A stretch of DNA of 64,000 nt from Morinoia aosen (lineage: Eukaryota > Arthropoda > Malacostraca > Amphipoda > Talitridae). How positions within the stretch are numbered: position 1 is the stretch's first letter; each line of letters begins with the position of its first letter. The translations under genes and the position numbers were made by a program. Positions 39,701 to 63,118 of this stretch are shown one piece after another. The notes below the pieces were generated by a model. It worked only from the letters and a program-made list of their open reading frames with translations, made no database searches and was not told the origin of the DNA. The stretch lies in the NCBI GenBank assembly GCA_030386875.1, contig CM059560.1, forward strand, positions 25,848,183-25,912,182, in the 5' to 3' direction.

Positions 39701-42700
39701 AAATTGAGGCAATTAGAATACATCGATAGCACACTCGCATCATTTTTCTGTGTTCAAGCTTACTGTGCTGGGCAAATTGCTTCGTGGATGAATAAGAAAT
39801 CGATGCATGATACATTAACGGATCATTTTTGTGATTACCGTGTCCTTAGTAGTCAACAACGCTGGCTTCTCGAGATGTGGGCTGATGTACCTGTGGTCGG
39901 TTGCCTGGCTGTTGTGGTGCTTGTGGTCGGTTGCCTGACTGTTATGGTGCTTTGTTGACGGTTGCCTGACTGTTATGGTGCTTTGTTGACGGCTGCCTGG
40001 CTGTTATAGTGCTTGTGGACAGTTGCCTGGCGGTCATGGTGCTTGTAGACTGTAGATACGTTCGAAGCCCTTCGTTGTAAATCACTTAGTTTTCCCGTTG
40101 GAAAAAGGAAGCTATTAGCTACAATTTCGAACTCAACCTAGGTGTATGAAATATGTACCGGCTCGACCGATGCATTGTGGTGTTCTGGCATCAATTCCCA
40201 TGATTCTTGAGAACCCACGCATCATATCAGTAAGTATCAACTCGATTGGAATAAAATATCCTTGTTTTGTCGGAGACAGCAGCGCCTCCAACAGCAACCT
40301 GGCTGTGTCCAGACTGGGCTCGAGATCCAGTTCTCAGGATGGCCGGGCCAGAGGCGGCGCATGGTCGATAATGGGCGCGGACATGGATGTCGGTGTGGCC
40401 GACTGTAGTCTGCTGAGTCCCGCCAATGAGGAGTCTATCGTCCGTAATCTTAGCGCAAGATACGACAGTGATATCATATATGTGAGTGTTGATGATGTCG
40501 AGAGCACTTTCCTGAAAGTAGACCGCTGATGCCTTGGTCGATTACTTCAAATACGCATTACGATATTCGGCGAGAGTGCAAAGTGAAAAGAATGGTAGCA
40601 ATGATCAAATAAGTTTTGGGTATGATGAGTAATATCTAAGGAAAGTATTATAAAAACAAAACAAAATACCTGTTGGATAAAATTTTCTCCTGTAGTGTCA
40701 TATGCCTGTGATTCTTTAGTGTTTTTCGACGAACGGTTTTTCGTATTTAATTTGTGACATATTCGCATCGATATGCCAAGACTTCATTAGAAGTGTGCTT
40801 GCCAACTAGCCCTTACCAAGTCTTGCACCATCTATTATTTCCAAAAAATCAGTAGTATATGTATTTAACTTTTATCCTACGGTTTTTCGGAAAAAGAAGT
40901 CATTTGTATGGTTTCTGTTCTCAACAGAGTAAAGTCGGCTGTGATCTGGTGAGCGTGAACCCTTACCAACGTTTGGAGCTGTATACGCTGGAGCTCATGA
41001 GGGCATACCGCGCCCCTCTGCTCAGTGCCCTGCCCCCTCACTTGTGAGTAGCGTGTGGTGGTGAGGGCCCCTCTGCTTAGTGCCCTGCCCCATTACTTTT
41101 GAGTAGCATGTGGTGGTGAGGGCTCCTCTGCTTAGTGCCCTGCCCCCTCACATGTGAGTAGCGTGTGGTGGTGAGGGCCCTTTGCTCAGTGCCCTGGCTC
41201 CTCACTTGTGAGTAGCGTGTGGTGGTGAGGGCCCCTCTGTTCAGTGCCCTGCCCCCTCACTTGTGAGTAGCGTGTGGTGGTGAGGGCCCCTCTGCTTAGT
41301 GCCCTGCCCCCTCACTTGTGAGTAGCGTGTGGTGGTGAGAGCCACTCTGCTCAGTGCCCGATTGTGATCTCACCAGCTTACGGCTTGAGAACCTCTTCAT
41401 AAAGCTCCTGCTGAGATCTGTAGGTATAGGAATAGAATTTTAAGTAAAACATTTTATGGAACCTGAGTATCTTAACCTCAAGATGGTTCTAGCCTACCTC
41501 ACCCCGTCAACCAATATACTTGGGAATCACAAGTATAGTGACCACCACGCTGAGAGGTACGAGATCTAACCGCTCCGTTGTTATGTGATCTGCGCTACAT
41601 TTACTCGTACATGATCAGTTTCTTGATTTCGAGGAGTAAAAATAAATCCTTCTCATTTCTTTTCCTACTACTTAAAGAGTGCTTCTTAATTCACTATCAA
41701 GTAATGAAGGAATACTGCTTAATTGGGCTGATATTTTCATCTACCGCTGAGTTTTTCATGTATGGAATGTATGCTGAGTATTTTACTCAGTACTCTTGAA
41801 AAAATGCAGTGAACTTTTTTCAAATTTATGAAACACTGAGAAAGTTTTTTTGTAGTACCGAATATGATTCCATTTCTCTGAGTACTTGAAAGGGAATACG
41901 TTCACAAGGTATCTCTCAGAAAAGTAAAGCAGCAGTTAGTGTTTTAGAAATCACTCTAGACTACAATGAAACCCAACACCAGGCTACAAGATGAACACCA
42001 GGAAAACATGCTCAGGTGTGTCGGCCGCGCACGTGTAGCGTAAACGCAGCGCAATTGAAGTGCCATCGTGCATCTCTCTGCGCTGTTGTACTTAGTGGTT
42101 GGATGCCCGGTATTGTGGGGTTTTTTGACGGTGGTCTAGCTGTTGATTGCGGGTGGTTACGTGCGTTTGAACTTTGTAGATTTTGTCAGCTTTTAGCTTT
42201 TTAAGCGATTGATTATGCACATCTCACGCGCGCAATACTTGTTCGAGCTTCTATGCTGCTTTGTGTCTCAACTGAACGGTCGCCGAGCGATATACATGCT
42301 GTGCTGAGGTGTTGTGCGCCGTGTAGAGGTTTAAGTGATGCGCTGGAGTGACACCGTTGCACCGCTGGAGAGACACGAAACTGGAGCAACACGAGACTGG
42401 AGCAGCGTGAGACGGAAGCAACACGGAACTGAGAGATACGAGACTAAATTACCTCGAGGCTGGAGCAACACCAGACAGGAATAACGCGAGACTTTAGCTG
42501 TATGAGACTGGAGCAGCATGAGACTGGAGCAACACTGGACTGAGAGCCCCGAGACTGAATTAGCTCGAGACTGGAGCAACATGAGACTGGAATAGATATG
42601 AGACTGGAGCAACACCAAACAGGAATAACACGAGACTTTAGCTATGTGGGACTGCAGCAACACGAGACTGGAGAGACACGAGACAGCACAACGAGAACAC

Positions 42701-45700
42701 CAGCAATTAGGAGTGCTGCCATTGGCTGCTTCTGTCTCGTTCCTTCTGGGGCTGTCGGCAGCAGCTAGCCTGGGTGAGGGTGAACTGCGTGATGGTCACG
42801 TGGTTGGTGAGTGTGGTGGTGAGCTGCGTGGTGAGGGTGGTGGTGAGCTGCGTGTTGAGGGTGGTGGTGAGCTGCGTGGTGACGGTGGTGGTGAGCTGCG
42901 TGGTGAGGGTGGTGGTGAGCTGCGTGGTGAGGGTGGTGGTGAGCTGCCTGGTGAGGGTGATGGTGAGCTGCGTGGTGAGGGTGGTGGTGAGCTGCGTGGT
43001 GACGGTGGTGGTGAGCTGCGTGGTGAGGGGGTCTAGTGACGGCATGCTAGGGTGAGAGGTGCTGCTGACATATTTGAGCAGAAAAAAATACAAATTACAC
43101 CACATCATAGTTGAAGTATTTCAGTGAATTTTTTTAAAACTAATTATGACACATTGAACTGATTGGAAAACATAGAAAATTCGTCCGTTTTTCGAAGATG
43201 TTTACTTAGTCTTTGAGAAGCAAATATTTAAGAATTTATGGAACATGAAGTTTGAAAAATAAAGTCCATTCTTGAGGCAATCATCAAGGAATTTCTTACG
43301 CAGCTTCCCACCTGTCCCACCTGGTAATATGCAAAGTACGAACGCAAAGTACGTACAATGATTTAAAAAGCTACGTTTAAAATAAGCTTTACGTGGTGTT
43401 CAAAGTTGTGACGCGAAATGACGAGTGCGCCGTCACGGAGCTTGAGCTTGAACTTGAACTTGAACTTGAAATTGAGGGCCGACAGCGTCGGGGCCTTTGT
43501 AACGGCCTACAATTCCCTCCACAGTTATCACACAAAGAGTTCAGCGCCTGGTACCAGACTTGTCCACTAAACTACTCAGGATTTACCAATCCTTGTCACA
43601 AGCTGCCATTGGATGGCGTCACTGGGATAGCCAGTGCGTCAAAACACCATCCCCAGGCATATTGGGTCATTACTGACCATTCTACCTGACTGGCTCATTC
43701 CAGTCACTGTCTCTTACTCCAGGCACGCACAAGAAACAATTTCATAGCTTCAATGATACTCAAATTGCACTCCTGATCCAATCCAGCAAGACAGCTTATA
43801 CCGCAATCATCTTCAGCACATCTGGCATACCACTCATTCTCTCCATACTGCTCAAGCACCACATTCATAAAACTTTCTCTCTCTTGCTCATACTTACTAC
43901 ATTCCAGCACAAAATGCTCAATTGTTTCCTCCACTCCACTAATACACTGCCGACATAATCTGTTATTATTCTCATTCCACCTCCATGTACGTCTGTTCAC
44001 ACTCAATGACTTACATCTCACAGCAAACAAGAGTTGACTTCCAAAACTACCATCATAGAACATCTCAAACTTAGGTGCTTCTTTTTTCATATACCAGTCA
44101 AGTGTAGGCTTCCGCACCATGCTAAGCCTCCACTTATTCAATCCATACTCTTTTGTTTTCCTCTCAATCTCTTTCTTCCACCTCTTGCAGTCCCACTCAG
44201 GCCCTACACCTCCAGGATTTATTAAACTCCAGTCATCCACAGGTCTCCCAATTCTAACATGAATAATCTTTTGCATACTAAGCTTCCTTGCATGCCCCCA
44301 ACACACTTTCTCCCAATAGCTTACACTCAGATTCCATTCAAAAATTCGCTTTACCCATCTGCTATTCTGCATTCTTTCAATTCTCACCTTATAATTCAGC
44401 ACCGCCTTCATCATTCTTTCTGAAAATAGGCTCCACCCAAGGTCACCTCTAATGGCTTCTGTAGCTGTCCATTTTGGAGCACCCAATGCTAACCGTCCTA
44501 CCTTATTTTTTATTACATCCAGCTTTTCAAGATCACTTCCATTCCAGGCAAGAGCACTCATACCATACATGACACTAGGTACAGCAACATACTTCCACAT
44601 TCCTCTCACACATTCATACTTGTTTGCTCTGTATCTGGCCACGCTACTTAATCGTCCACTCCACTGCATAGCTTTTGCCACTTTCTCACCCTTAGTTCTA
44701 GTGCATCCATCTTCACTTATCATACAACCTAGATATTTGTATTCTTTTGTTCTACCTATTCTGATTTCTCCAATATTCCACAGTCTGTCTCTATCAGTCT
44801 CATCACTATTTATAACCATAACCTTGCTTTTGTCGGCACCGAAGTTCATCTTGAAATCTGTACTATATCCGTTCACAATGTCAAGCATCCTTTGCAGTTC
44901 ATGTCCACATCCACTAACCACAACCACATCATCAGCATACAACAAACAGCTCAGTCTCTCATTACCAACTTTCAGTCCTAAGCCACTCCTTCTCAGTCGA
45001 ACTGCTAATTCTTCTGTGTACAATCCAAACAACAGGGGAGACAGCTAGAGTACAGCCCTGTCTCACTCCTCTAACACTCCTCACTTGCCCCGTTTCCAAA
45101 TTTCCTAACCTGTATATAGCGCTTGTGTTCTCATACAGACTTTGTACAATTTTTACTATTTTTCTGCTAAACCCAACTTTTCTCAGAACTTCAAGGAGCC
45201 TAACCCGATCCACTCTGTCATACGCTTTTTCAATATCCAGGAATGCTAAATACACCTTCTTATCATCCTTCCTCATTCGCTCAATTATTTCACTCACTAC
45301 AAACAGATTATCTTCCCCACGTCTATCCTGCCTAAAACCACTGTTCTTCACCTAGGACTCCTAATTCCTCAACTAAATTTTTCATTCTCTCATTCAAAAT
45401 ACCACAAAATATCTTACATACAGTGTCACCCAGTGCAATTGGTCTGTAATTTTTAAGTTCTTTCATACTCTTATGTCCACCCTTATGCAACAGAACTACA
45501 TTACACTTGTTCCAGTCATCCGGTACTCTTTCACTCTTCCATATCTCATCAAATAAACATTTCAACATACTGACCACACTCTCTCCTCCAAATTTATAGA
45601 ACTCATATGGGATCTTATCAGGGCCACATGCCTTTCCATTTTTCACTTTCTTCAAAAAACTTACAATCTCTTCACAAGTGATTTCGTCTTCCATTTGCAG

Positions 45701-48700
45701 TTCACGTTCATCAATCAAAAAATTTATGGGTGCATTATCTGTAACCTGCTCATTCATTCCACCAATGTCCTCCCAGTATTCTTCAACTGCTTTCACCAGT
45801 TGCATCCTATCTTGCACACTGCAACCATTAACTACTAATTCATCAACTTGAACTTCACTACTTCTATCATTACCTTGTATAAACTTATACCAATCTTTTA
45901 TTCCATCCGGACCTTTCTTTCTTAGATTTTCAACTTGGTGTCTCTCCTCTTTAACTCTAGCCTCATTAATCATTCTCCTTACTTTCTTCTGCTGGTCCTT
46001 GTACTCATTCCATGCACTCTGCCATTCATCCTCAGTAATTCTGTTTCTTTCATACATTTTCCTCATACTGCGTTGTTTCTTATTTAAAGTCTTTCTTCTC
46101 ATTCGTTCTTCCTTTATCTCACTTGTAAACCACCTGGCATTCCCTGTCCCTTTCCTACATTTTATTCTACCAATCTTTTGCTCTGCCACATCATACAAGG
46201 TTCTTGCAATCTCACCATTTAGGTCATTTACATTTCCACACCTGTTCCAGTTATACCTACTCAATTCATTCTTAAATTCTTCCCAGTTTGCCTTTTTTAT
46301 CTGCCAACTTTCTTTCACACTACTGACCTTTTGCATTGACTCCTTTCTACCCCAGTTATATTCAAGCACAAGCATTTTATGGTCACTATCAATATCAAAA
46401 TCATCTTCATCTACAAACATTTCATTGACACACTCTCTTGCTCTACTATTCACAATCATATAGTCAATTGCAGTTTTCCATTCCCTGCTTTGCCATGTAT
46501 GCAAGCCATTTCCTATTGTTACATTCAGGTTTTCAAGTTCATTCTCATCACAAAAATCTATCAATTTTTGTCCATTTGCATTCACCGGCTCACCAAGTAT
46601 ACCAACATGGCCATTCATGTCACCCATCACAATCAGAGGGCACCTGCAGTGTTCTCGTACAATCCTTGTTAATATTTCATACTTTTTTACATTCTCTTCA
46701 TGAGCTAAAATCCCATCAGTTGTCATATAACATACAATCACAACAATACATTCTCTGGCATGCATTCTTTCACACTTAATCGCTAACAAATCTTCACTTT
46801 CAGGTTCATTTCCAACAGGAAGTTCCTCTAATTTCCAATTTAGAGCATTCTTTACAATCAAACCAACTCCACCACCTCTTTTTTGCCAATTTACACGCCC
46901 TTTTCCTATCATATGATACTTATTCTCCTTACATGTTAAACTGACTCTATCACGCATTTGGGTCTCTACTACACCAACACAATCCAATTTTCCGTTCTCA
47001 AATTCTACTACGAGGTCATCTAACTTTCCTGCATTCCATCCACGCACATTTATACTCCCAAACCTTACAACACAATTGGACAATTCCAGACGTTCCTCAC
47101 TTTTGCTCTGACGGATTTTCATTCATCCAGTTCCAGCTTCCATTATGACATGAGTAGCCCTGATCCACCGGATATATTTCTTGGAGAGTTTCATCTCACC
47201 TTCTTTTGTAAGATGGACTCCATCTCCAAGAAAACACCCATCCTGGATCACGCTATCCATGTCAAGGAAGCTGGAACCCAGCTCACGCTTTCTTACACTC
47301 TCAGCTCTCATACTCATAATCCTTTCATGCAACTCTCTATTCACCTCCTTTCGCACCCTTTCATACTCCTCATCACACGCAGGCCTTCTTAGGAGGCTAG
47401 TCACTGCCACTCTAACATTCTTCTTCCGCGCCCTATCAACAACTTTCATAATTGCATTCACCGTACGTTCTCTCCCACATTCAAGCAACCCATTGCCACC
47501 TCCTTGCAGTACAACCATTCCTTCATCCATTCCATCTATCACTCTCTCAGCATGCCTACAAATCTCCTCCACTCCTTTCCCTCTCATGCTCATACATCCA
47601 CTACTGTCACTCATACATACGAACCTATCAACATTCTTCACCATGCTATCTCCACATATTCTAATCATAGGTCTTACTCTCCCTTTCATGCTACTCTTTC
47701 GCTCACTTCTTTCACTCAGATCATTCTTTCCATTCATCTTCCTTTCATTCGCTTCCACTACAGGCTCCTGCACCTCATGTGGCACCACAACAGGTGGCTC
47801 ATTCACTCTCTTTCCATTTTTACCTCTTTCATCATGCTCATTCATCCTTCTACTCTCATCTGTCACATTTGCACCATCATTTACTTCATTCACACTCCTT
47901 GCACCATCATTTGCATTATCATCCACTTCATTTGCACTCCTTGCACCACCATTTACCTCTTCATTCACTGCATTTGCACCATTCTCATTCTTTCCTTCGT
48001 TCAGCTTCCTTTCATCCTTCAAGTCAGCCTCTAAAGCAACCATCAAAATTGTTAATCTCTCAACCTCCTCTTTCAACTTCTTACTCTCATCATTCAAACA
48101 TTTCCAGCACGTAAACACAAGATCACTCAACTTTCTCCGACTCATTTCTCTCAAACCTTTGCATGCATCTATATCTATCCACTCTTTACAAGTCATGCAC
48201 TCAATCTCCTCATCCATTCCACTTGCACCTCCCTTCCTACGACCAGTCCTATTTCTTGCCATCCTCAAACACAGACTTCTCTCTCAGTACAAATTTCACA
48301 GGCAGAAGAAGTCTTCACTCACCAAATCTACTGAAAATCAAGTTATCAAACCAAAAGAAACAAAAACGTTTCCTACTACTCTCACAGTCACTCTCTACAA
48401 TGTCACACACTATACTCTTTATATGCAAAGAAAGCTTACCAGTCAAAACACCTCAGTCAAAAATTGCAAGTCACCACACCAAAGTCCAATGCTCAGTCTC
48501 AACTCTCACGCAGCAAAAAAAACTACTCTCACGAGCACTCCATACAAAGTCACACACTGTACTCACGTGAATATACAAACTATACCAGTTTTTCAGCAAC
48601 TTCACTTTAATTCACCACAATTTTCGTCGGAGAATTGGACGCACGTGCACACCGTATCGTACCCGTCCGTATCCATTCCACTACAATGAACCGCTAGAGT

Positions 48701-54700: not shown

Positions 54701-57700
54701 CATCAAGGGAAACTCTTATAATAATTGTTATCAGTACACGTGACACACACTGACCACGAAGTGCAATAAGTTAATGGTACTTAAGCCTCAGGCTGGGGGG
54801 TGGGGTTGCATTGTACATGCTTTTATTTCCGAAACACATGACATAGATTGTATTTGCATGAGTAGGTAGGTGGCTTGACTGAACAAGCTCGAGCTTCACA
54901 CAGCAGCCCAATACTGACACGTGCTACTTATTTTAGTGAAAGTGTGCAGCCGAGTTGCCAAACTGGCCTTTTTTCCCATCAAAGTATTTTAGCTTGGCCA
55001 TATCTTATTTGGAAAGATGGAAGATTTGAATTAAGCTGCTCGTAAGAAGATGACAAATCTCTTTTTCTTGTGATAAACCAACGCGAACACCGACTGCTGC
55101 CGTGACTCCATGAGCAGTTTTGGACCGATGCTCTCCCCATCTCAGAATTGGTTCTCATGCATAGATTCGAAGGAGGGCAGTAGAAGGATGATTGTTTTGT
55201 GGAAAACAGTGTGATGAAGAAAAAAATTTGGTGGCGGTTACGCAGGATGGATGAAACACACGATACAGCCTAGGTATACTGCTCCACGAGGCCGTAAATT
55301 GAAGTAAATTGTACACCAGTAAAATTTTAAGAAACACTCCGAGAAGGAAATGCAATATTGTTGAGCTCTTACTGGTTTCATTTGCTCTCGTCGCCCATCA
55401 GATCTGGACAGCATGGGATTGAACAAATTTCATAAATAATACTTCCTGATATCTAAAACTACTGCAAATTTTATGCATGAATGAGTAGTAAAGCAGATCC
55501 CACTTGCCTTACTCGCCTGGTCAAATATGATTATATAGGCGCAGAGAGAGTTATCTCTATAGGCTAAAATATAATTTTGAATGTTTATGGTAATTTACTG
55601 TTGAATAAGAATTTTATAGCTTTCGTACGAAAGTGCCTCAATTTGAAATTGGGTTTAGCGTTAAAATTCTGAGGAACGAGTGACTGAACCAGCGTGGTCG
55701 CGGGGTAATGTCTTGATTCACCATACCGCCCGCAGCTGGTAAATATTCAGGTATCTGTACAGACAGAACTTTGTTGGTGAGGTTCTTTACAGACCACAAG
55801 CGAGACGGAAAAGTGTGTTAGCCCAAGAAGGGATTGTTCTCTGTTCCGATCAAAATTTTAGCTTCGCTTCTGGAAAAATCGAGTGCCTCATGAAGCAGCT
55901 GTCAACTTAACTTTCTTGGGGTCACATTCCTATTTAAGGTTGTATTCTCAACTGAAGGGTGAGAAGAGAGACCACATACACTGCGACTTTGTGATGGACC
56001 TGAATTTTATACTTCTGTGCTTTGACCATTTCCGATTTGTAGTTACGCTAGCAACTAAGTGTTACATTCCTGTACTGATTCCATCAGGAGGATACAACTA
56101 TTGTATCTACGGGAATTACCTCTCCCACTAGGGAAATGTGAGGTCCCGAGCTAATAGTTAGGTAGGCTTTTTTTCTTTAAATAAATGTGTTTTTTGTTTT
56201 GTTGAACGACATTTTATTTTCAATTCTTTACCGGCCTGTTTTTCAGCACCTCTGATTTTTTTCTTCAACTTTTATCCTGTTTCCTAACCTTCCTTCTCAA
56301 CTGACTGTTCTTATGAGCAGGGAATCTTGTGTGGGAACACACTTTGTGCTTACATTCCGCGTTTCCTTAACTCCATACTAAATGGTACCTTCATCCATTC
56401 TCTCTTTGAACATCTTTGTTCTCATAAAGAAGGCTAAAACTAACTTAAAATCAATCTATCATTCCTGTAATAACTCGCCCTCCAAACGCACGCGGACGCT
56501 CCTTCTCACTTTTCTTTCTTTGCAGGTTCGCAATTGGGGAAAGCGCGCGGCGGGGGGTGTACGAGCAGCGCGAGGACCAGGTGGTTGTGCTCGCTGGGGA
56601 GAGCGGTGCGGGCAAGACGGAGGCGGGCAGGCTGCTGCTGCAGTTCCTCTGCCCTGAGGAAGAGTCTTCTTCTGCCGCTAGGCTCCATGCCGCCCACACC
56701 GTCTTAGAAGGTCCTTCTGAACTTAGGCTTGGTCATTCCAATTTGATCACCATTTGTTAAGAAGAAAAAGAATTTATTCATGGTGGTAGAATAATGAGCT
56801 CCTATAGTTATAATGTTCGAAAACGTTAGCCTTGGCTTCAACCTAAAATATTGTCTTAGAATGATTTATGCTCATGCACTCGTAAAATGTTTTTTAAGGG
56901 AATCTTTCCCCCGCTGAGAGTCTGTGACTAATGCAGGTATATAAATTCTACATCTAGTGTGCAAGTAATAAATGTTTCATTTTCATGCTGTTACAGAAAT
57001 GTATTTTCTAAAAGGTATTTTCATTGAAAATGTTCCAATTACTCGAACTGCTTTCTTTTCTCCACAGCTTTCGGCAACGCACGAACTCGACGGAACGATA
57101 ATGCATCGCGCTTTGTGAGTATTTAATGCTAGCACAGAGTTATGTTTACGCTCTCTTTCCGTTACAATGAGATTAAGCGCAAAGATTTCTCAAATTTTAC
57201 TTTTTCCTCTCATGAACACCTCATCTAACACTCACCTAGCCAGCGAGTGCGCCGCAACTCTGATGTGTAGGCTGTGTTGCTGTCCAGTGTAGTCAGTCGG
57301 ATTTTAATTGAAATATCAATTGGTGGTGAGAAAATTGTAGTACATTCGACGTTGAATTCTACTCCGAAAAAATGCTTTTATTTTCTTGAAATATGCGATA
57401 GCTCATGAAAAGATCAGTGATTACTAGGAGACGTAAAAGACGTGCGCACCCAGAGAAAAATATTTGTTTTTCCATAGAAATAATTTTGAGCTCTGCAGTG
57501 GAACTGAGGTCGTCACGTCGGTAGGGCCAAGCAAATAGCTGCTTCTATTCTTTGTGGCAATTTTTTGAGCTGCTTTTTCTAATTGACTCAGGTTTGAATT
57601 ATCGAAAGAACTGCCTGTTACTGGAATTAACACTGCTGGCTCATGCATTGGAGTACAGTGCACTCTCGAAGCAAAAATTATTTTAAAAATCTTCACACAT

Positions 57701-60700
57701 CTAGGGGGCTGTTTGAAATATCGAAATGTTTGACACAAAATAAGCGCTGAGTTTTCACGTGCTCTTGTCCAGTGGTTATTTAGCGCTGCGAGCACCACAC
57801 GTTGTAATTTATGGCAACAAAGAAAATTTGATTCATTATTTTTGGTCAAGAAATATGTTTTGATAAGAATTTAATTGTTAAACTTATTTATCTTAGAGTG
57901 ATGGGCCTCGATATTTTATCAAAATATAAAAATGACGATAATCACGACACTCATTATGTAAGAACCACATAGTTCGAACACATCAAAATGACTCTTCCCA
58001 GTTCCGAGTTCTAGCTGTCAATGTTACCCGAACGATTGAAAACTCAATCATTTGTAATGAATTCAAGTTGAAGGTCAGTTAAGCAGATGTGAACATCCAT
58101 ATAGACTCAATTATGTCAGCAGCCCGCATTCTCGGGGCTGCTAAACCTCCAAGAGATATTAATGTAAAGCACAGAGGGAAAATTATTTCAGTCAGCGATC
58201 TACTGCAAAAATATAATCCAGTTCTCTAGCATTCACGTAGACAAATCTTTTCCTGCTTTAGCTAGAAATATGAAAGTAATGCCATGGGATGCTGTCGTGG
58301 TTCCGATCCCCTAACTGAGCCACCATTGGTGCTTTTGAGTGGAGCGTGTCGATCGGTAGATGTTGAAGTACGTCGTGACAGAACTACACTAAAATTAGTG
58401 TAGTTGAGTGCTTTTGTATTAATATGGTTCCAGCATGCGTTTGAAGGAGACAGCATATTTATCGACGCATTGTAATGCTTCAGTTATTGGTCTCCTCGAT
58501 ATCGAGGCAAATTTTAGTTTACCTCACGATCTCCATTTCGTGGATGTACTTCTTAATTGGATCCTTGCACATTTTTTCGAGGTTAATCTTTACACTTCGG
58601 GCATCTTTTCAGGCAAAGCACGTAGAGCTCGAGCTGGACCACAGAGGGGAGGCTGTGGGAGGTGCCTTCACAACCTGTGAGTTCTGCCAGTGGCAGGCCT
58701 CTCTGTCGTCAGTTGCAAATATGTTCCGTTCAGTGTCCTTCCTTGTCATTTCTTAATTGATTTAATCAATATCTACTGTTGCCTTATGAATAAGTTCCAC
58801 CAGCGAACAATATCAGTAATAAATCTTTGTTGTGGCTTAAATAATCTGTCAGTGTCCACTAATGTCATTTTTAAATAGGAGAAATCAATGCCCTTTGCTA
58901 TTTTATATGTATTTTCTGCCAATAGTTACCATTGCCATTTATAAATAAGTACTACTAATCTTCATTTTATTGATTATAAGTATTTTAATCGAGATAATTT
59001 TTGGCAACTTTCATTGGTGGATTTTTTTTTTAATCCGGCTGCAGCTTTACTTCAAGTATAAAGTTTTATGTGGGAAGATTTTTTTAGCTATTTGGATTTC
59101 CTAGCAAATAGTTACTTGAAATACAAAGATGTGTGAGATACTGAACGTATTGGACGCTATACACGACAGTTAATTTTTTTACAAATTTCGGGTGCAAATC
59201 ATAACATAATTAATATTCCTATCGTGCCTCCTTGCGCATGAACAGAATTGCTCAGTGTTATAAAAGCAGCTGTGATGCTAACAGACCAACATCTTGTTGG
59301 GTAGGAGCGCTCCAAAAATTGATATACGCTAAAATGTTTACTTAAAAAAGACGTTAAACTTCACTAAATAACATTTTTCCTTCTTACAATGATTTAGTTT
59401 TGGGTTATTTTAATGACTGGATTTTTGTAACTTCCATGCTCTACCGAAGATTTGTTGGAAAAGGTAAGTGCAGAAGTGAAGGCTTTGATTTATGCGATAT
59501 TGACAGCACGCATGCGCGCCTCGCACACTCCTCGCTCATAAGTAAGGGTGGTGAAATTAGGGTTAGTGACCGGCGATGTGTTCAAATGTTTCCTCTTCAT
59601 TTAAGGTATTTTGCTTCCGGTGCCTTTGTCGCTATGAATGATATTGAAGTAAAGTTCATTGAGTGTGGCCAATCTTGATTCTGCATCTGCTGAATTTTGG
59701 GAAAAAATTATTCGTCATTTGTTACCCAATAATGATACCTTTGCTCAGCTACTAGTCAGTTAAAAACACTTTTCATTTAAATCTTTTATTCTCTTCACTG
59801 AATTTGAGTGACGATGATCGCAATGTGTTATCGCTTTTAAAGAGAGAAAATGTACGTCAAAATTAAACACTTTAAATATCTTTTGGTGTCCATGTCATGA
59901 AGGTACAAGTTACCATAAGCTACAATAGGACGTTATAGTTACAATTTTAAGGAGTGCCTTACCTAACAAATTATCGAGCAGTAGTTGTGTTATAAATTTA
60001 TTAAGGAATTTCAGTTAACGATGTCACGCTCTTATATGTACTTTGCAAATAGCGAGGAGCTGACTTATAATTTTTCTTAGGAATGTGTTGCAGAAGCCGT
60101 GTGAATATTCATTCTACATGTGAGACAAAAATTTAAGTTTCATGAGAATTTGCAGCTAAAATGAAATCGAAAAAATGTCAGCTTGCAAAATTTGTACTGA
60201 TTTTACCGTCTGCGTTTGAAAACATGTATGCTTGTTCCTTCCAACTTTACGTAAGACTTGCTTTCATCGTTTATTTCATTGCACAAAGCCCTTTAAACTA
60301 AATTTTACGGTGAAAATTAACCTAGATGCAAATTTACACAAATAATAAGGCCATAAAAACCCTTACCAATGATACATGGTTTCGTAAGCTGTCTGTTTCC
60401 AATGTTTAAACAGTTTTCAACTTCGATCTACTCTCTCTAGGTAGTGAATTTTTGCGTGTCGATGAGAGTTTGAATGATGAACGTAGCATTAGCTGAATAA
60501 AGTAATGATCACAGTCATGTGATCGTCACATTTCAAATATTATTAATATTTCAGAGCAGAGTATGCCACCAGAACCCGAGCGAGAGAAATTATCACATCT
60601 TCTACCAGCTTGTTACCGGCGCACATCCCCACACGCTCAGTGAGTATCCTGGGGCACATCCCCACACGCTGTGAGTATCCTGGGGCACATCCCCACACGC

Positions 60701-63118
60701 TGTGAGTATCCTGGGGCACATCCCCACACGCTGTGAGTATCCTGGGGCACATCCTCACGCGCTGTGAGTATCCTGGGGCACATCCCCACACGCTCAGTGA
60801 GTATCCTGGGGCATATCCTTTACATGCTCAGTGAGTACCCTGGGCACTCAGTGAGTATCCTGGGATACATATTCCATTTTGATTTTATTTTGGAGTATAC
60901 AACTATCGTACTAGCGCTCCGTAGGGAAAGATGTGAGGTCCAAAGATGTGAGGTACTAGATAGACCTTTTTCTTGTTATACTTGAATTGGGTTTTTTATT
61001 TTATAACCAATCACTTTTTTAGGCTCACTACTGCCCTTATTTTCAGTACCTATAGCTTTCAGCCTCAACTTCTATATTGTTTCTCATACTTCTTTTTCAA
61101 CCTTGCTGTTTCCAAGGGCAAGGTAAGAGGACTCTTTGTGCATAAGTTCCCTGTTCCCTTAATTTCGCACGAAATGGTAATTTCCTCGTCCTCTCATGGG
61201 AATACCTTTGTTGTGGTTACTGGTTAGGGAGGCCTAAACTAACTTATAATCTAATCTGTTTCGATTTGACGAAATTGAAGCTATCGAAGATCGTCCTCGA
61301 ACTTCTCGCTCCTAACTTAGGAAAATTGTCACTGAAGACGCGTCCCTCCTTGAAGCGCATAAGCGTTAACAACTCGCAGACCTCCAAAAAAACGAATGGC
61401 AATGGGTAAGATTTTTCTGAACGTTCGGGGAAAGTTACGCTGTCAGCTGACACCATACTTTCAAACGGGAAACTTTTTCACTTGTTGAAGCGAAGTTTCT
61501 CAGCTAGAAAAACAAAGAGCTCGCATAGTCTCATACACACATTCCAGGCTCATAAAGAACAGTTTTTGGACGTCAAGAACCAACATCGATCAGGATGCAG
61601 GTTATCATTTCGAAAACATGTAAATCTTCGATCAATATTATTCGTGTCTAGATGAGCATAAATTCTTATATCAGACAAATCTTTAGTCCCGCACTGAAGG
61701 AAGTTCAGTGCGCATTTTGAAATATTCCCCTCTCTCAATACCATAGTACATCTCAAAATGCAAACAGCGAAATAACGGTAGCGGGAATATTTTCCACTTA
61801 TTTTTAACAAGGAAAAGTGGTACCTTTCATTGTTTGACCTCAACCAAAATGGATTTTTCGGCCTGGATCATTCTAGAGTCTGAAGCTTAGGCTTCGCTAT
61901 CACGCAACCAGTGAAGCTATGAAGCGTTTCTTCAAAATGACCTGAAAAAAATTGTCATGACGTTCTTCGCACGTTATGCAGTAGAAATGTCCACACGACT
62001 TAGGGCTCGTAAATCCGGCTGGAGGAAAGGCAATGAACAATAATTGTTTATGATTTAGATAAAGACCCTGAATAAATGCTGCAATAGCCATTTTTAATTA
62101 CAATTTACTAAGTCCGAGGTTTTTATCTGTATACAGTACCACCGTTACTTTCAATCCACATGTGCATATTGGTGATGCAATACTGACAAGCAATTATGAA
62201 GACTTCCTGATGCGAACCTCCTATCTTCAACAAAATAAAATAATTTTTTAGATGAGTAAATTAAGAGTAAAGGTACCTAAAAAACTATTCCAAGACCATA
62301 CACTTCATTAGGCCCTATCGAGAGTTGGTTCACTTTTTGAGATACTCGGAAATCGAAAAATACCTTTCCGAAAGTCAGATGAAAAATCTCAAATTCATAG
62401 CAACAGTGAAGCAAACACCTGGCCTTAAAAAAGAATACGCATTTCGTACTGCTCATTAGTAGACATTTCAAACCTCTACAGCTCTGTGTTCATGGTCATG
62501 TTCTTATTTCTGGCACAGAAAGCTTGCGCCTGCAGCGCAGTGCTGACCAGTACAAAGCTCTCTCCTCCTGCCGCCCAGTTCCCTCAGACGCTGACGTGGA
62601 CAAGCTGCACTACGCCGCCACCAAGGTCTGTTGCACAAGCCATAATCCTATTTATTTGTAAGAAGTTTGGGTCAAATACTGTCGCATAGGCATATGAGTT
62701 TGCTCAAGATCTTGACATGATGATATGCTCATTTTCAGGGCTGGAGCAGACTTTAGAAGTAAACAAAGTAGAAATGGAATAATACCTCGAAACTATTAAG
62801 CTTCATAGAAATCGTAGACATCCTTGGTTGATTTTTATTATTGTTATACAAAGAAGGACTAGAAAAAAAGTTCGAATTCTACGTTTCAAGTTGAAGGCAA
62901 ACAAATAATTTGAGGCGATAAAATATGGGCTAGTAGATCACCTCGTGCCTCTCGCGATTCTGATGTTCAGCGCGCCTTGGACACGCTGGGGCTGAGTGCA
63001 GCGGAGCAGCACGACGTGCTGTGCATCGTGGCTGCCGTGCTGAAGCTCTCCAACCTCGTTTTCTCGCCCGTCAACAACATAGACGGCACGGAGGGTTGCG
63101 CTGTGCAGAACGAGTACG
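32627..63118 (+). CDS. Unconventional (class I-like) myosin heavy chain, 11 exons, 3' end outside window
   Basis: Joining 32649-33759, 38610-38994, 40280-40481, 40928-41043, 56526-56710, 57068-57114, 58613-58676, 59450-59463, 60555-60639, 62519-62625 and 62971-63118 gives 2464 nt, i.e. 821 codons with no stop and every junction phase-matched. Residues 1 to about 540 are a Ser-rich, probably disordered extension. The motor head follows: VSVNPYQ, P-loop GESGAGKTE (about 629-637), VLEAFGNA, switch I NDNASRFAK (about 676-684), YLLEKSRV and RNYHIFYQL. Myosins bind actin and use ATP to move along it in the cytoplasm. The short loops and YLLEKSRV/NPYQ motifs suit class I, but the long extension is unusual and an insect Myo95E-like identity is possible. 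The rest of the head, the neck and the tail lie beyond the window. Confidence 0.85.
33760..34471. other. Intron 1, proximal part
   Basis: Intron 1 runs 33760-38609. This part is AT-rich and shows nothing recognisable. Confidence 0.4.
34472..35054. mobile_element. MITE with ~190-bp terminal inverted repeats, family C, in intron 1
   Basis: The left end GGTGTCTCACAAAAATGTCC mirrors the right end GACATTTTTGTGGGACACTC. TA lies at each outer edge (CTA before, TA after the right end), fitting a TA target duplication as used by Tc1/mariner-type transposases. Length about 580 bp, no coding capacity. A one-armed relative lies at 24906-25066. Confidence 0.75.
35980..36905 (+). pseudogene. Decayed Tc1/mariner transposase in intron 1
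   Basis: Pieces in three frames, in the right order: helix-turn-helix VNRMLVWRTLKRFKETGKL (36025-36085), KYLKTTPYK (about 36240), RIFFSDEKK (36338), a catalytic-core remnant FEQDSATSHGAKKSRE (36597-36645), and the C-terminal end with IATEWARITPKYC (about 36793) and KWGVFK (36890). Numerous stops and frameshifts show it is old. This family would mobilise TA-flanked elements; whether it relates to the family C MITE 1 kb upstream cannot be judged here. Confidence 0.75.
36906..38609. other. Intron 1, distal part
   Basis: No gene or transposon motif found. Words such as CTATAGC recur irregularly at 37785-37970. The intron ends in TTTTTACAG. Confidence 0.4.
38610..38994 (+). CDS. Myosin exon 2: Gly/Ser/His-rich linker
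   Basis: The acceptor TATTTTTACAG is followed by CC completing the split codon of exon 1 (A|CC, Thr). The frame encodes a low-complexity stretch: GSGMPGGWRRPPEEPGG, a His-rich TLHHHHRQQ, then a long Ser run and LASRGLRAHSVRGVLGRG. The donor at 38995 (GAG|GTTAGA, phase 2) fits exon 3. High GC content contrasts with the introns. It is predicted to be disordered. As with exon 1, its membership of the myosin rests on splice phase rather than homology. Confidence 0.65.
38995..40279. other. Intron 2, with a ~33-bp minisatellite at 39885-40040
   Basis: Contains about five imperfect copies of a unit around GGTTGCCTGGCTGTTGTGGT. The ORF through the first copies has no domain. The intron ends GTCGGAGACAG; an alternative AG lies three bases further on. 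Confidence 0.6.
40280..40481 (+). CDS. Myosin exon 3: entry into the motor head
   Basis: The first half is a Ser/Gly linker (SASNSNLAVSRLGSRSSS). The end, SLLSPANEESIVRNLSARYD then SDIIY, matches the start of a myosin head, where a Glu/Asp-rich segment leads to a helix of the form ...hhxNLxxRYxxxxIY. The donor TAT|GTGAGT at 40482 is phase 0. Here the homology to myosin begins. Confidence 0.85.
40482..40927. other. Intron 3
   Basis: Intron of 446 bp with consensus ends (GTGAGT...TCTCAACAG). Nothing else recognised. Confidence 0.7.
40928..41043 (+). CDS. Myosin exon 4: VSVNPYQ segment
   Basis: Encodes SKVGCDLVSVNPYQRLELYT then LELMRAYRAPLLSALPPH, the classical head region (consensus VAVNPY...YR...PPHLFA). 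Phase 0 in, phase 2 out; the split codon TT|G gives the Leu of PPHLFAIG. The usual YTYIG before this motif is replaced by YSKVG. The exon's 3' end and its donor (CACTT|GTGAGT) are the first unit of the minisatellite that follows. Confidence 0.9.
41012..41370 (+). repeat. 56-bp minisatellite seeded on an exon end and splice donor
   Basis: About six copies of GCCCCTCTGCTCAGTGCCCT...CTCACTTGTGAGTAG..., the first of which is the last 32 bp of exon 4 plus the start of intron 4. Most copies preserve the GTGAGT; others show TTTTGAGT or ATGTGAGT. Splicing at any donor but the first would add 56 bp per unit and shift frame. Confidence 0.9.
41371..42340. other. Intron 4, first unique stretch
   Basis: No gene or repeat recognised. 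Confidence 0.4.
42340..42700 (+). repeat. Degenerate GAGACTGGAGCAACAC repeat with higher-order copy
   Basis: A short motif around CGAGACTGGAGCAACA recurs more than ten times. A longer block (CTGAGAGATACGAGACTAAA and following) occurs at about 42431 and again at about 42540, so the short repeats were duplicated together as a larger unit of about 110-150 bp. Confidence 0.75.
42770..43040 (+). repeat. 24-bp G-rich minisatellite
   Basis: About eleven copies of GGTGAGCTGCGTGGTGAGGG plus TGGT, with occasional GGTGACGG variants. It yields apparent ORFs in three frames on both strands, all artefacts of the 24-bp (multiple of three) period. Confidence 0.85.
43041..43439. other. Intron 4, flank of the retrotransposon
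   Basis: AT-rich, nothing recognised. Confidence 0.4.
43704..47122 (-). pseudogene. LINE ORF2: APE endonuclease and reverse transcriptase, two frameshifts
   Basis: The first frame (47122 to 45332, 596 codons) has an apurinic-type endonuclease with INVRGWNAGKL, VVETQ, GDMNGHVG and SDHKML, then the start of the reverse transcriptase (GKACGPDKIPYEFYK, LKNYRPIAL). A one-base shift at about 45340 moves to a second frame (GFRQDRRGEDNLF, FLDIEKAYDRVDR, VRQGCTL), and another at about 45035 to the last frame, with the catalytic LLYADDVVVV and a C-terminal zinc-knuckle-like CRQC...EHFVLEC. The protein would nick target DNA and prime cDNA synthesis. The ORF2 ATG follows the ORF1 stop directly (TGAATG), suggesting coupled termination and reinitiation. 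Both frameshifts disable this copy unless they are sequencing errors. Confidence 0.9.
47123..48268 (-). CDS. LINE ORF1 protein: PHD-like zinc finger plus SGNH esterase
   Basis: Intact 381-codon frame, from ATG at 48268 to TGA at 47125-47123. The N-terminus has a zinc-finger-like set, CMTCKEWIDIDAC ... FTCWKC (residues about 24-56), then a coiled-coil-like KKLKEEVERLTILMVALEAD, a repetitive Asn/Glu/Asp linker (NEVDDNANDGARSVNEV), and from about residue 200 an SGNH-hydrolase-type domain: RICGDSMV (Ser block), GGGN (block III-like), and DGVHLT (Asp-His block). ORF1 proteins with a PHD-like finger and esterase domain are known from CR1-type LINEs, where they bind the RNA. It is followed at once by ORF2. 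It has no visible lesion. Confidence 0.85.
   Translation of the reverse strand: MRMARNRTGRRKGGASGMDEEIECMTCKEWIDIDACKGLREMSRRKLSDLVFTCWKCLNDESKKLKEEVERLTILMVALEADLKDERKLNEGKNENGANAVNEEVNGGARSANEVDDNANDGARSVNEVNDGANVTDESRRMNEHDERGKNGKRVNEPPVVVPHEVQEPVVEANERKMNGKNDLSERSERKSSMKGRVRPMIRICGDSMVKNVDRFVCMSDSSGCMSMRGKGVEEICRHAERVIDGMDEGMVVLQGGGNGLLECGRERTVNAIMKVVDRARKKNVRVAVTSLLRRPACDEEYERVRKEVNRELHERIMSMRAESVRKRELGSSFLDMDSVIQDGCFLGDGVHLTKEGEMKLSKKYIRWIRATHVIMEAGTG
48701..49010 (+). other. GC-rich flank and ~40-bp minisatellite
   Basis: 48705-48860 is GC-rich and may be the LINE's 5' end or a genomic flank. From about 48868 a unit around GGCCACTCGCTGGGTATATC is repeated three to four times. Confidence 0.55.
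49011..53398. other. Intron 4, central stretch
   Basis: No exon, transposase motif or tandem array recognised. Open frames at 51083-51720 and 52179-52640 lack recognisable domains. GC-richer at 50580-50940 and 51400-51640. Confidence 0.4.
53399..53965. mobile_element. Foldback MITE, family A, copy 3, in intron 4
   Basis: The most complete copy. The left arm begins TAACATTGGTAAATGTGTAG and the right arm ends CTACACATTTACCGCTAACA. Arms are about 150 bp; the centre contains a partial second copy of the arm core (AAACAACTTTTCTTCTATAC at about 53642). Related to 2141-2672 and 4451-5076. Confidence 0.8.
53966..56127. other. Intron 4, distal stretch
   Basis: Open frames such as 54388-54753 and 55883-56131 have no recognised motif or homology. 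Nothing else seen. Confidence 0.4.
56128..56460 (+). repeat. Intronic repeat, copy 1
   Basis: Aligns by eye in order with 60915-61258: TAGGGAAATGTGAGGTC, the T-rich tract, TTTTCAGCACCT, GTTTCCT..., CATCTTTGTT and a final CTAAAACTAACTTA. Diverged, same orientation; unclassified. Confidence 0.6.
56526..56710 (+). CDS. Myosin exon 5: P-loop exon
   Basis: The acceptor CTTTCTTTGCAG is followed by G, completing TT|G (Leu) from exon 4, so the protein reads PPHLFAIGESARRGVYEQRE then DQVVVLAGESGAGKTEAGRL. GESGAGKTE is the textbook myosin ATP-binding P-loop with Lys and Thr in place. The rest, LLLQFLCPEEESSSAARLHA AHTVLE, has a short loop 1, and the exon leaves phase 1 (G|CT, Ala). The intron before it is 15.5 kb. 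An unspliced read-through meets a stop at 56758. Confidence 0.95.
56711..57067. other. Intron 5
   Basis: Short intron starting GTCCTT, a weak donor, and ending TTTTCTCCACAG. Nothing else recognised. Confidence 0.7.
57068..57114 (+). CDS. Myosin exon 6: switch I exon (47 nt)
   Basis: With the Ala codon split across the intron it encodes AFGNARTRRNDNASRF and ends at CTTT|GTGAGT in phase 0. Switch I in myosins is normally NxNSSRFGK; here, with exon 7, it is NDNASRFAK, so the first Ser and the Gly are both Ala. The Asn, second Ser, Arg and Phe are kept. Confidence 0.95.
57115..58612. other. Intron 6
   Basis: A minus-strand open frame at 57424-57849 (141 codons) has no recognised motif and is probably chance. 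The intron ends GGGCATCTTTTCAG. Confidence 0.6.
58613..58676 (+). CDS. Myosin exon 7: strand after switch I (64 nt)
   Basis: Encodes AKHVELELDHRGEAVGGAFT T and ends T|GTGAGT in phase 1. Compare the class I pattern GKYMDIxFDxKGxPVGGxI. The Y codon is completed only by the microexon that follows. Confidence 0.9.
58677..59449. other. Intron 7
   Basis: Begins GTGAGT and ends TGCTCTACCGAAG. Otherwise AT-rich with no recognised element. Confidence 0.65.
59450..59463 (+). CDS. Myosin exon 8: 14-nt microexon (YLLEK)
   Basis: ATTTGTTGGAAAAG is followed by a perfect donor, GTAAGT, and preceded by TGCTCTACCGAAG. Exon 7 leaves a single T, so T|AT, TTG, TTG, GAA, AAG encode YLLEK; exon 9 then opens in phase 0 with AGC AGA GTA (SRV). 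The result, FTTYLLEKSRV, restores a segment that is nearly invariant in myosins and is missing if exons 7 and 9 are joined directly: that join would shift frame and give a stop (T|AG). Confidence 0.85.
59464..60554. other. Intron 8
   Basis: Starts GTAAGT, ends AATATTTCAG. Nothing else recognised. Confidence 0.65.
60555..60639 (+). CDS. Myosin exon 9: SRV...HIFYQL
   Basis: Encodes SRVCHQNPSERNYHIFYQLV then TGAHPHTL, matching the myosin pattern SRVxxQxxxERNxHxFYQLL. It ends CTCA|GTGAGT in phase 1, and A|AA into exon 10 gives Lys in TLKSLRL. The end of the exon plus its donor is the founding unit of the 31-bp minisatellite that follows. Confidence 0.95.
60621..60870 (+). repeat. 31-bp minisatellite seeded on an exon end and splice donor
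   Basis: About eight copies of GCACATCCCCACACGCTGTG plus AGTATCCTGGG, each with a GTGAGT donor; the first and two later copies have CTCAGTGAGT. The phase-correct donor for the myosin is the first (60640). The last units are shorter and more diverged. Confidence 0.9.
60871..62518. other. Intron 9, remainder
   Basis: Holds the second copy of the intronic repeat (60915-61258). A minus-strand open frame at 61550-61843 has no recognised motif. The intron ends TTATTTCTGGCACAG. Confidence 0.5.
60915..61258 (+). repeat. Intronic repeat, copy 2
   Basis: Diverged partner of 56128-56460, in the same orientation but in a different intron of the same gene. No termini or target duplication are obvious. 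Confidence 0.6.
62519..62625 (+). CDS. Myosin exon 10: head segment before the relay region
   Basis: Encodes KSLRLQRSADQYKALSSCRP then VPSDADVDKLHYAATK, fitting the head pattern ...LLxxLxLxxxxxYxYL...xxDxxxF... Phase 1 in, phase 0 out at AAG|GTCTGT. GC-rich against AT-rich introns. Confidence 0.9.
62626..62970. other. Intron 10
   Basis: Intron of 345 bp ending GATTCTGATGTTCAG. Nothing else recognised. Confidence 0.65.
62971..63118 (+). CDS. Myosin exon 11: IVAAVLKLSN segment
   Basis: Encodes RALDTLGLSAAEQHDVLCIV AAVLKLSN, LVFSPVNNIDGTEGCAVQNE Y, corresponding to the head pattern ...AMxxLGFSxEEQxxIxxIVAAVLHLGNIxF. It ends ACG|GTAAGC in phase 1. The usual Gly in LGN is Ser. The remaining head, IQ neck and tail lie beyond the window. 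Confidence 0.9.

Follow-up and report, generated by a model that had tools for sequence, protein, structure and literature searches.

Very short coding exons in myosin genes have been reported before, and the closest described examples come from plants. Plant myosin genes contain very short exons that are absent from almost all ab initio predictions (PMC3850447), and among the domains to which plant exons of no more than 15 nt contribute coding sequence, Myosin_head ranks with the commonest, at 2.4% of coding microexons (PMC8831610). Almost all automatically annotated myosins contain mispredicted exons (PMC2375034), and mapping of proteins to genomes with Blat or Exonerate overlooks very short exons (PMC2442105, PMC3162530). 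As regards inclusion, a microexon of only 4 nt whose length is not a multiple of three, exon 2 of MPC1, is documented as constitutively included, and four other constitutive microexons are incompletely included in artificial reporters (PMC9929638).

The microexon described here lies at 59450-59463 on the + strand of the window, the 64,000-nt stretch of Morinoia aosen DNA that was analyzed and from whose first base positions are counted unless a contig is named. It reads ATTTGTTGGAAAAG and is preceded by ...CTACCGAAG and followed by GTAAGTGCA, with the dinucleotide AG directly 5′ of 59450 and GTAAGT directly 3′ of 59463. Exon 7 ends at 58676 with ACA ACC T, leaving over a single base (T), and exon 9 begins at 60555 on a codon boundary (AGC AGA GTA). 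When exon 7 is joined straight to exon 9, GAFTT is followed at once by TAG; when exons 7, 8 and 9 are joined, the T of exon 7 and the 14 nt encode YLLEK and the frame is open through this segment. A sequence-only reading of the DNA had claimed that AG and GTAAGT border the 14 nt, that exon 7 leaves one base while exon 9 opens in phase 0, so that their direct union creates a stop, and that the 14 nt supply exactly YLLEK. The splice dinucleotides proved exact at these positions, the stop is the GAFTT-TAG junction, and the segment is restored by the 14 nt and has no other source in the 1,878-nt interval between the two exons. Its exon numbers, 7 to 9 with the microexon as exon 8, are consistent if 40928-41043 is counted as exon 4. 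As an internal exon, 59450-59463 combines a length of no more than 15 nt with splice signals and the correct phase. The 14-nt exon in the class-I myosin motor is, judged from sequence, very probably real.

The 5′ splice site of the microexon, GTAAGT at 59464-59469 (+), matches a general 9-base donor consensus at 9 of 9 positions when the preceding AAG is included. It is the only one of the ten donors scored in the gene to do so, the other nine matching at 6-8 positions. The 3′ splice-site region (59420-59449, +) is ordinary in its pyrimidines (11 of 15, vs 8-13 at the other acceptors), carries TGC at -13 and is free of AG for 50 nt upstream. It ends in AAG, not CAG, and is alone in this among the eleven acceptors scored, the other ten of which end in CAG; the AAG end counts against the microexon explanation.

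Because the segment belongs to the motor and an mRNA that skipped it would meet a stop at the exon 7/9 junction, inclusion is probably constitutive, and we regard it as highly likely that a divergent class-I myosin gene carries at 59450-59463 a coding microexon that is included constitutively. It would then be part of the mRNA in all cells that make the protein. Like MPC1 exon 2, it has a length that is not a multiple of three, breaks the frame when skipped and is bordered on both sides by introns far longer than itself, although RT-PCR and minigenes demonstrated inclusion for MPC1 exon 2, whereas for the myosin microexon it is predicted (PMC9929638). The sequence-only reading had also held 14 nt to be too short for exon definition by the usual rules; this stands in part, but the documented 4-nt constitutive microexon (PMC9929638) speaks against the remainder.

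It is also conceivable that the microexon is a regulated on/off exon, included in some cells only (e.g., in neurons, via the eMIC splicing enhancer), its skipping switching the myosin off elsewhere. The length that is not a multiple of three and the TAG produced by skipping would suit such an exon, and the weaker acceptor, the UGC at -13 and the 50-nt AG-free stretch resemble those of eMIC-dependent exons (PMC8797185). However, TGC also occurs within 30 nt of three of the gene's ten other acceptors, and before two of the ten AG is absent for 51 and 91 nt. A profile search of the genome for SRRM_C (eMIC, PF15230) gave no match at E up to 1; introns that split this 67-position domain could, however, hide a copy from such a search. 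Exons that encode an indispensable motif are usually constitutive, which also argues against regulation. Finally, while the eMIC- and SRRM4-dependent neural microexons may share with the myosin microexon a weaker acceptor, a nearby UGC and a possible removal of the downstream intron first, they are regulated, and those of the fly have weak 5′ splice sites where the donor here is very strong (PMC8797185, PMC10250204). We consider regulated inclusion unlikely. That two introns lying 14 nt apart in an exceptionally conserved stretch of one lineage's myosin have made of the microexon a cell-type switch, giving a motor when it is in and a stop when it is out, strikes us as decidedly unlikely.

If the microexon is included constitutively, how might an exon of 14 nt be recognized? 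One possibility is that U1 recognizes the perfect donor first and that intron 8 (1,091 nt) leaves first, fusing the 14 nt to the 85 nt of exon 9. The microexon would then be recognized as part of a composite exon of normal size (99 nt), and the weaker AAG acceptor would be used last, in the removal of intron 7 (773 nt). A downstream-first model fits because a perfect donor is combined with a weaker acceptor (PMC10250204). In that study, 58% of SRRM4-dependent microexons are spliced downstream-first, highly included control microexons are divided about equally between the two orders, and an upstream intron that is short relative to the downstream one is associated with upstream-first removal. 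Since the shorter intron here is the upstream one, this last association speaks against a downstream-first order. For a 14-nt Arabidopsis microexon, 41 reads with downstream-only splicing and none with upstream-only splicing are reported (PMC8831610). Removal of intron 8 before intron 7 has, in our estimation, about an even chance of being the order used.

The host gene is, from its predicted product, a divergent class-I myosin. Its chain of exons, all on the + strand, comprises motor exon 4 (40928-41043; ...SVNPYQRL...PPHL), exon 5 with the P-loop GESGAGKTEA (56526-56710), exon 6 with the switch I segment NDNASRF (57068-57114), exon 7 (58613-58676), the microexon, exon 9 (60555-60639), which leaves one base, exon 10 (62519-62625), exon 11 (62971-63118) and later motor exons at 64159-64370, at 65077-65196 and from 65914. 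Joined, these 11 consecutive motor exons, from 40928 to about 66030, are in frame and contain no stop. The 404-aa joined product, which was ended after ...LHLLQQ for the Myosin_head and PDB comparisons, matches Myosin_head with 390 bits, in agreement with the original identification of the gene as a myosin. The best eight of 60 PDB matches are myosin-Ib (three), myosin-Ic (two), myosin IE (two) and "myosin I" (one), with myosin-Ib in first place at 333 bits and the other classes ranking after class I; comparison with NCBIfam gave no match. The name Myo95E was considered for the gene, and we do not claim it.

Further 3′, and outside the joined chain, lie open exons that encode HYAG..., the CLKPN segment and the last part of the motor. 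Also outside this chain, on the same strand and about 19 kb downstream (about 18 kb after exon 9), is a match to Myosin_TH1 at C5:25926874-25927014 (E 7.6e-4), which at 29.3 bits falls below the cut-off of 31.1. Because of these further open motor exons and the TH1 match, even though it is below the cut-off, the gene does not look dead. If it were a pseudogene in decay, with the 14 nt as a remnant that splicing now leaves out, the divergence of the motor, in which switch II reads DVFGFE and is followed by unusual sequence, and the placement of the exon 9 donor inside a 31-nt minisatellite would be accounted for, but decay would hardly have left 11 consecutive exons with neither a stop nor a broken phase, the P-loop, switch I and conserved segment intact and the motor exons further downstream open. 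We consider this reading very unlikely.

The minisatellite itself occupies 60621-60818 (6.3 copies), starts within the 3′ end of exon 9 and has a unit that is not a multiple of 3 in length; it repeats the exon 9 donor GTGAGT and therefore presents a run of several similar donors. Two intron stretches, 56059-56440 and 60970-61260, resemble interspersed repeats, and their translations have matches at numerous sites in three further myosin loci. GC skew is extreme (-0.52) in one 4-kb block, 44001-48000.

How readily could such a segment arise by chance? A screen of the 1,878 nt that separate exon 7 from exon 9 for AG..GT segments of up to 300 nt found 93 that are frame-compatible and stop-free. 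YLLEK is encoded by two of these, both starting at 59450, one with its donor after 59463 and the other with its donor after 59475, which inserts VSAE after YLLEK; as the latter donor also preserves the frame, it counts against the explanation with an exon at 59450-59463. Candidates shorter than 60 nt number 65, and three are 14 nt long (YLLEK, LAGLS and CILLP). An exact AG-YLLEK-GT exon in this phase appeared in 1 of 20,000 dinucleotide-preserving shuffles of the interval, and the loose pattern [YF][LFM][LA][ED][KRQ] in 8 of 20,000. The window and 41 loci, 42 partly overlapping sources read on both strands, offer 2,458 AG-14-GT frames in 727,410 bases, and 59450-59463 is the single occurrence of the loose pattern among them. 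Although a 14-nt match is short and its acceptor not ideal, the rarity of such matches in the shuffles and the failure of any other candidate in the interval to encode the segment make it exceedingly improbable that the match is accidental and that an exon not yet seen supplies the true segment.

A Myosin_head profile search across all 29 contigs of the genome (1.99 Gb), limited to the best candidates, gave at least 79 matches, including one to an exon of the host gene. For comparison with other myosin genes, 17 loci were obtained from 27 listed places, less the host gene's own three. The segment is YLLEK in 11 of them, YLLEQ in two and YLLER, FLLEK, YMAEK and YFLDQ in one each, so that calling the motif almost invariant, as the sequence-only reading did, was fair. 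In 17 of 17 loci the segment and the residues that follow it are in one exon (borders read by eye), and none of the 17 has both of the introns that flank the microexon; the exon borders are for this reason without comparative support. At L023 a phase-0 intron apparently ends 4 nt upstream of the position that corresponds to the intron of the host gene, and at L022 there are two possible acceptors upstream, the nearer of them 3 nt before the segment (both by eye). Apart from this nearer acceptor, no intron touches the segment in any of the 17 loci read besides L023. The idea that the microexon is the gap between two introns found singly in paralogs was rejected for the loci read, in every one of which the segment is continuous with what follows it.

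The intron between exons 6 and 7, which follows SRF in phase 0, has counterparts in L015, L016, L021 and L024, so intron positions can be common to these genes. Compared with each other by BLAST, introns 7 and 8 gave, self-matches apart, only matches of 11-41 nt with E of 0.02 or worse, and both introns compared with the collected loci gave none at E 1e-3 among the listed matches below 100% identity. Intron 7 matches itself alone in the genome. Given that none of the 17 loci has the two introns together, that they are unlike each other and that intron 7 is found once, they are probably specific to the host gene or its lineage, in which two introns would have come to lie 14 nt apart.

Several observations were made in passing. 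Two of the myosin loci, L017 and L019 (C17, 37.53 and 37.59 Mb), lie about 63 kb apart and are nearly identical in the exon read, with YLLER replacing YLLEK in one of them; the pair is perhaps a recent tandem duplication. At C1:35644596-35648320, one muscle-type myosin gene has six matches to the same motor segment, with starts at profile positions 376-378, an arrangement that we take to recall arthropod muscle Mhc with its mutually exclusive exons. When a 131-aa product was compared with viral contigs, 10 stretches matched a pattern and none was confirmed as a relative. Contig C27 carries several long stop-free COX1 frames, unlike the copies on C26, C28 and C29, which have 8 TGA, and C27 may include sequence of bacterial or other foreign origin.

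The kind of microexon described here is already known, as tiny myosin exons missed by automatic methods have been reported before. Both the short exons of plant myosins (PMC3850447) and the plant Myosin_head microexon cluster 38 (PMC8831610) are, like 59450-59463, tiny coding exons in myosin genes; those systems are plant myosins, whereas the present gene is an animal class-I gene, and a location within the motor is given for the animal exon alone, as far as the available portions of those papers extend. Among the matches listed in a literature search of partial coverage, there was no paper on the 59450-59463 exon or on a microexon at the YLLEK motif of an animal myosin. That gene finders would overlook this exon is a prediction in line with published experience. 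In an automatic model of the host gene the motor would probably be interrupted by a frameshift or stop, and the gene could pass as a pseudogene or a truncated myosin. With its perfect donor, AAG acceptor, 14-nt length, frame-breaking phase and conserved codons, the predicted exon would also offer a clean natural case in which to test the order of intron removal at a constitutive microexon.
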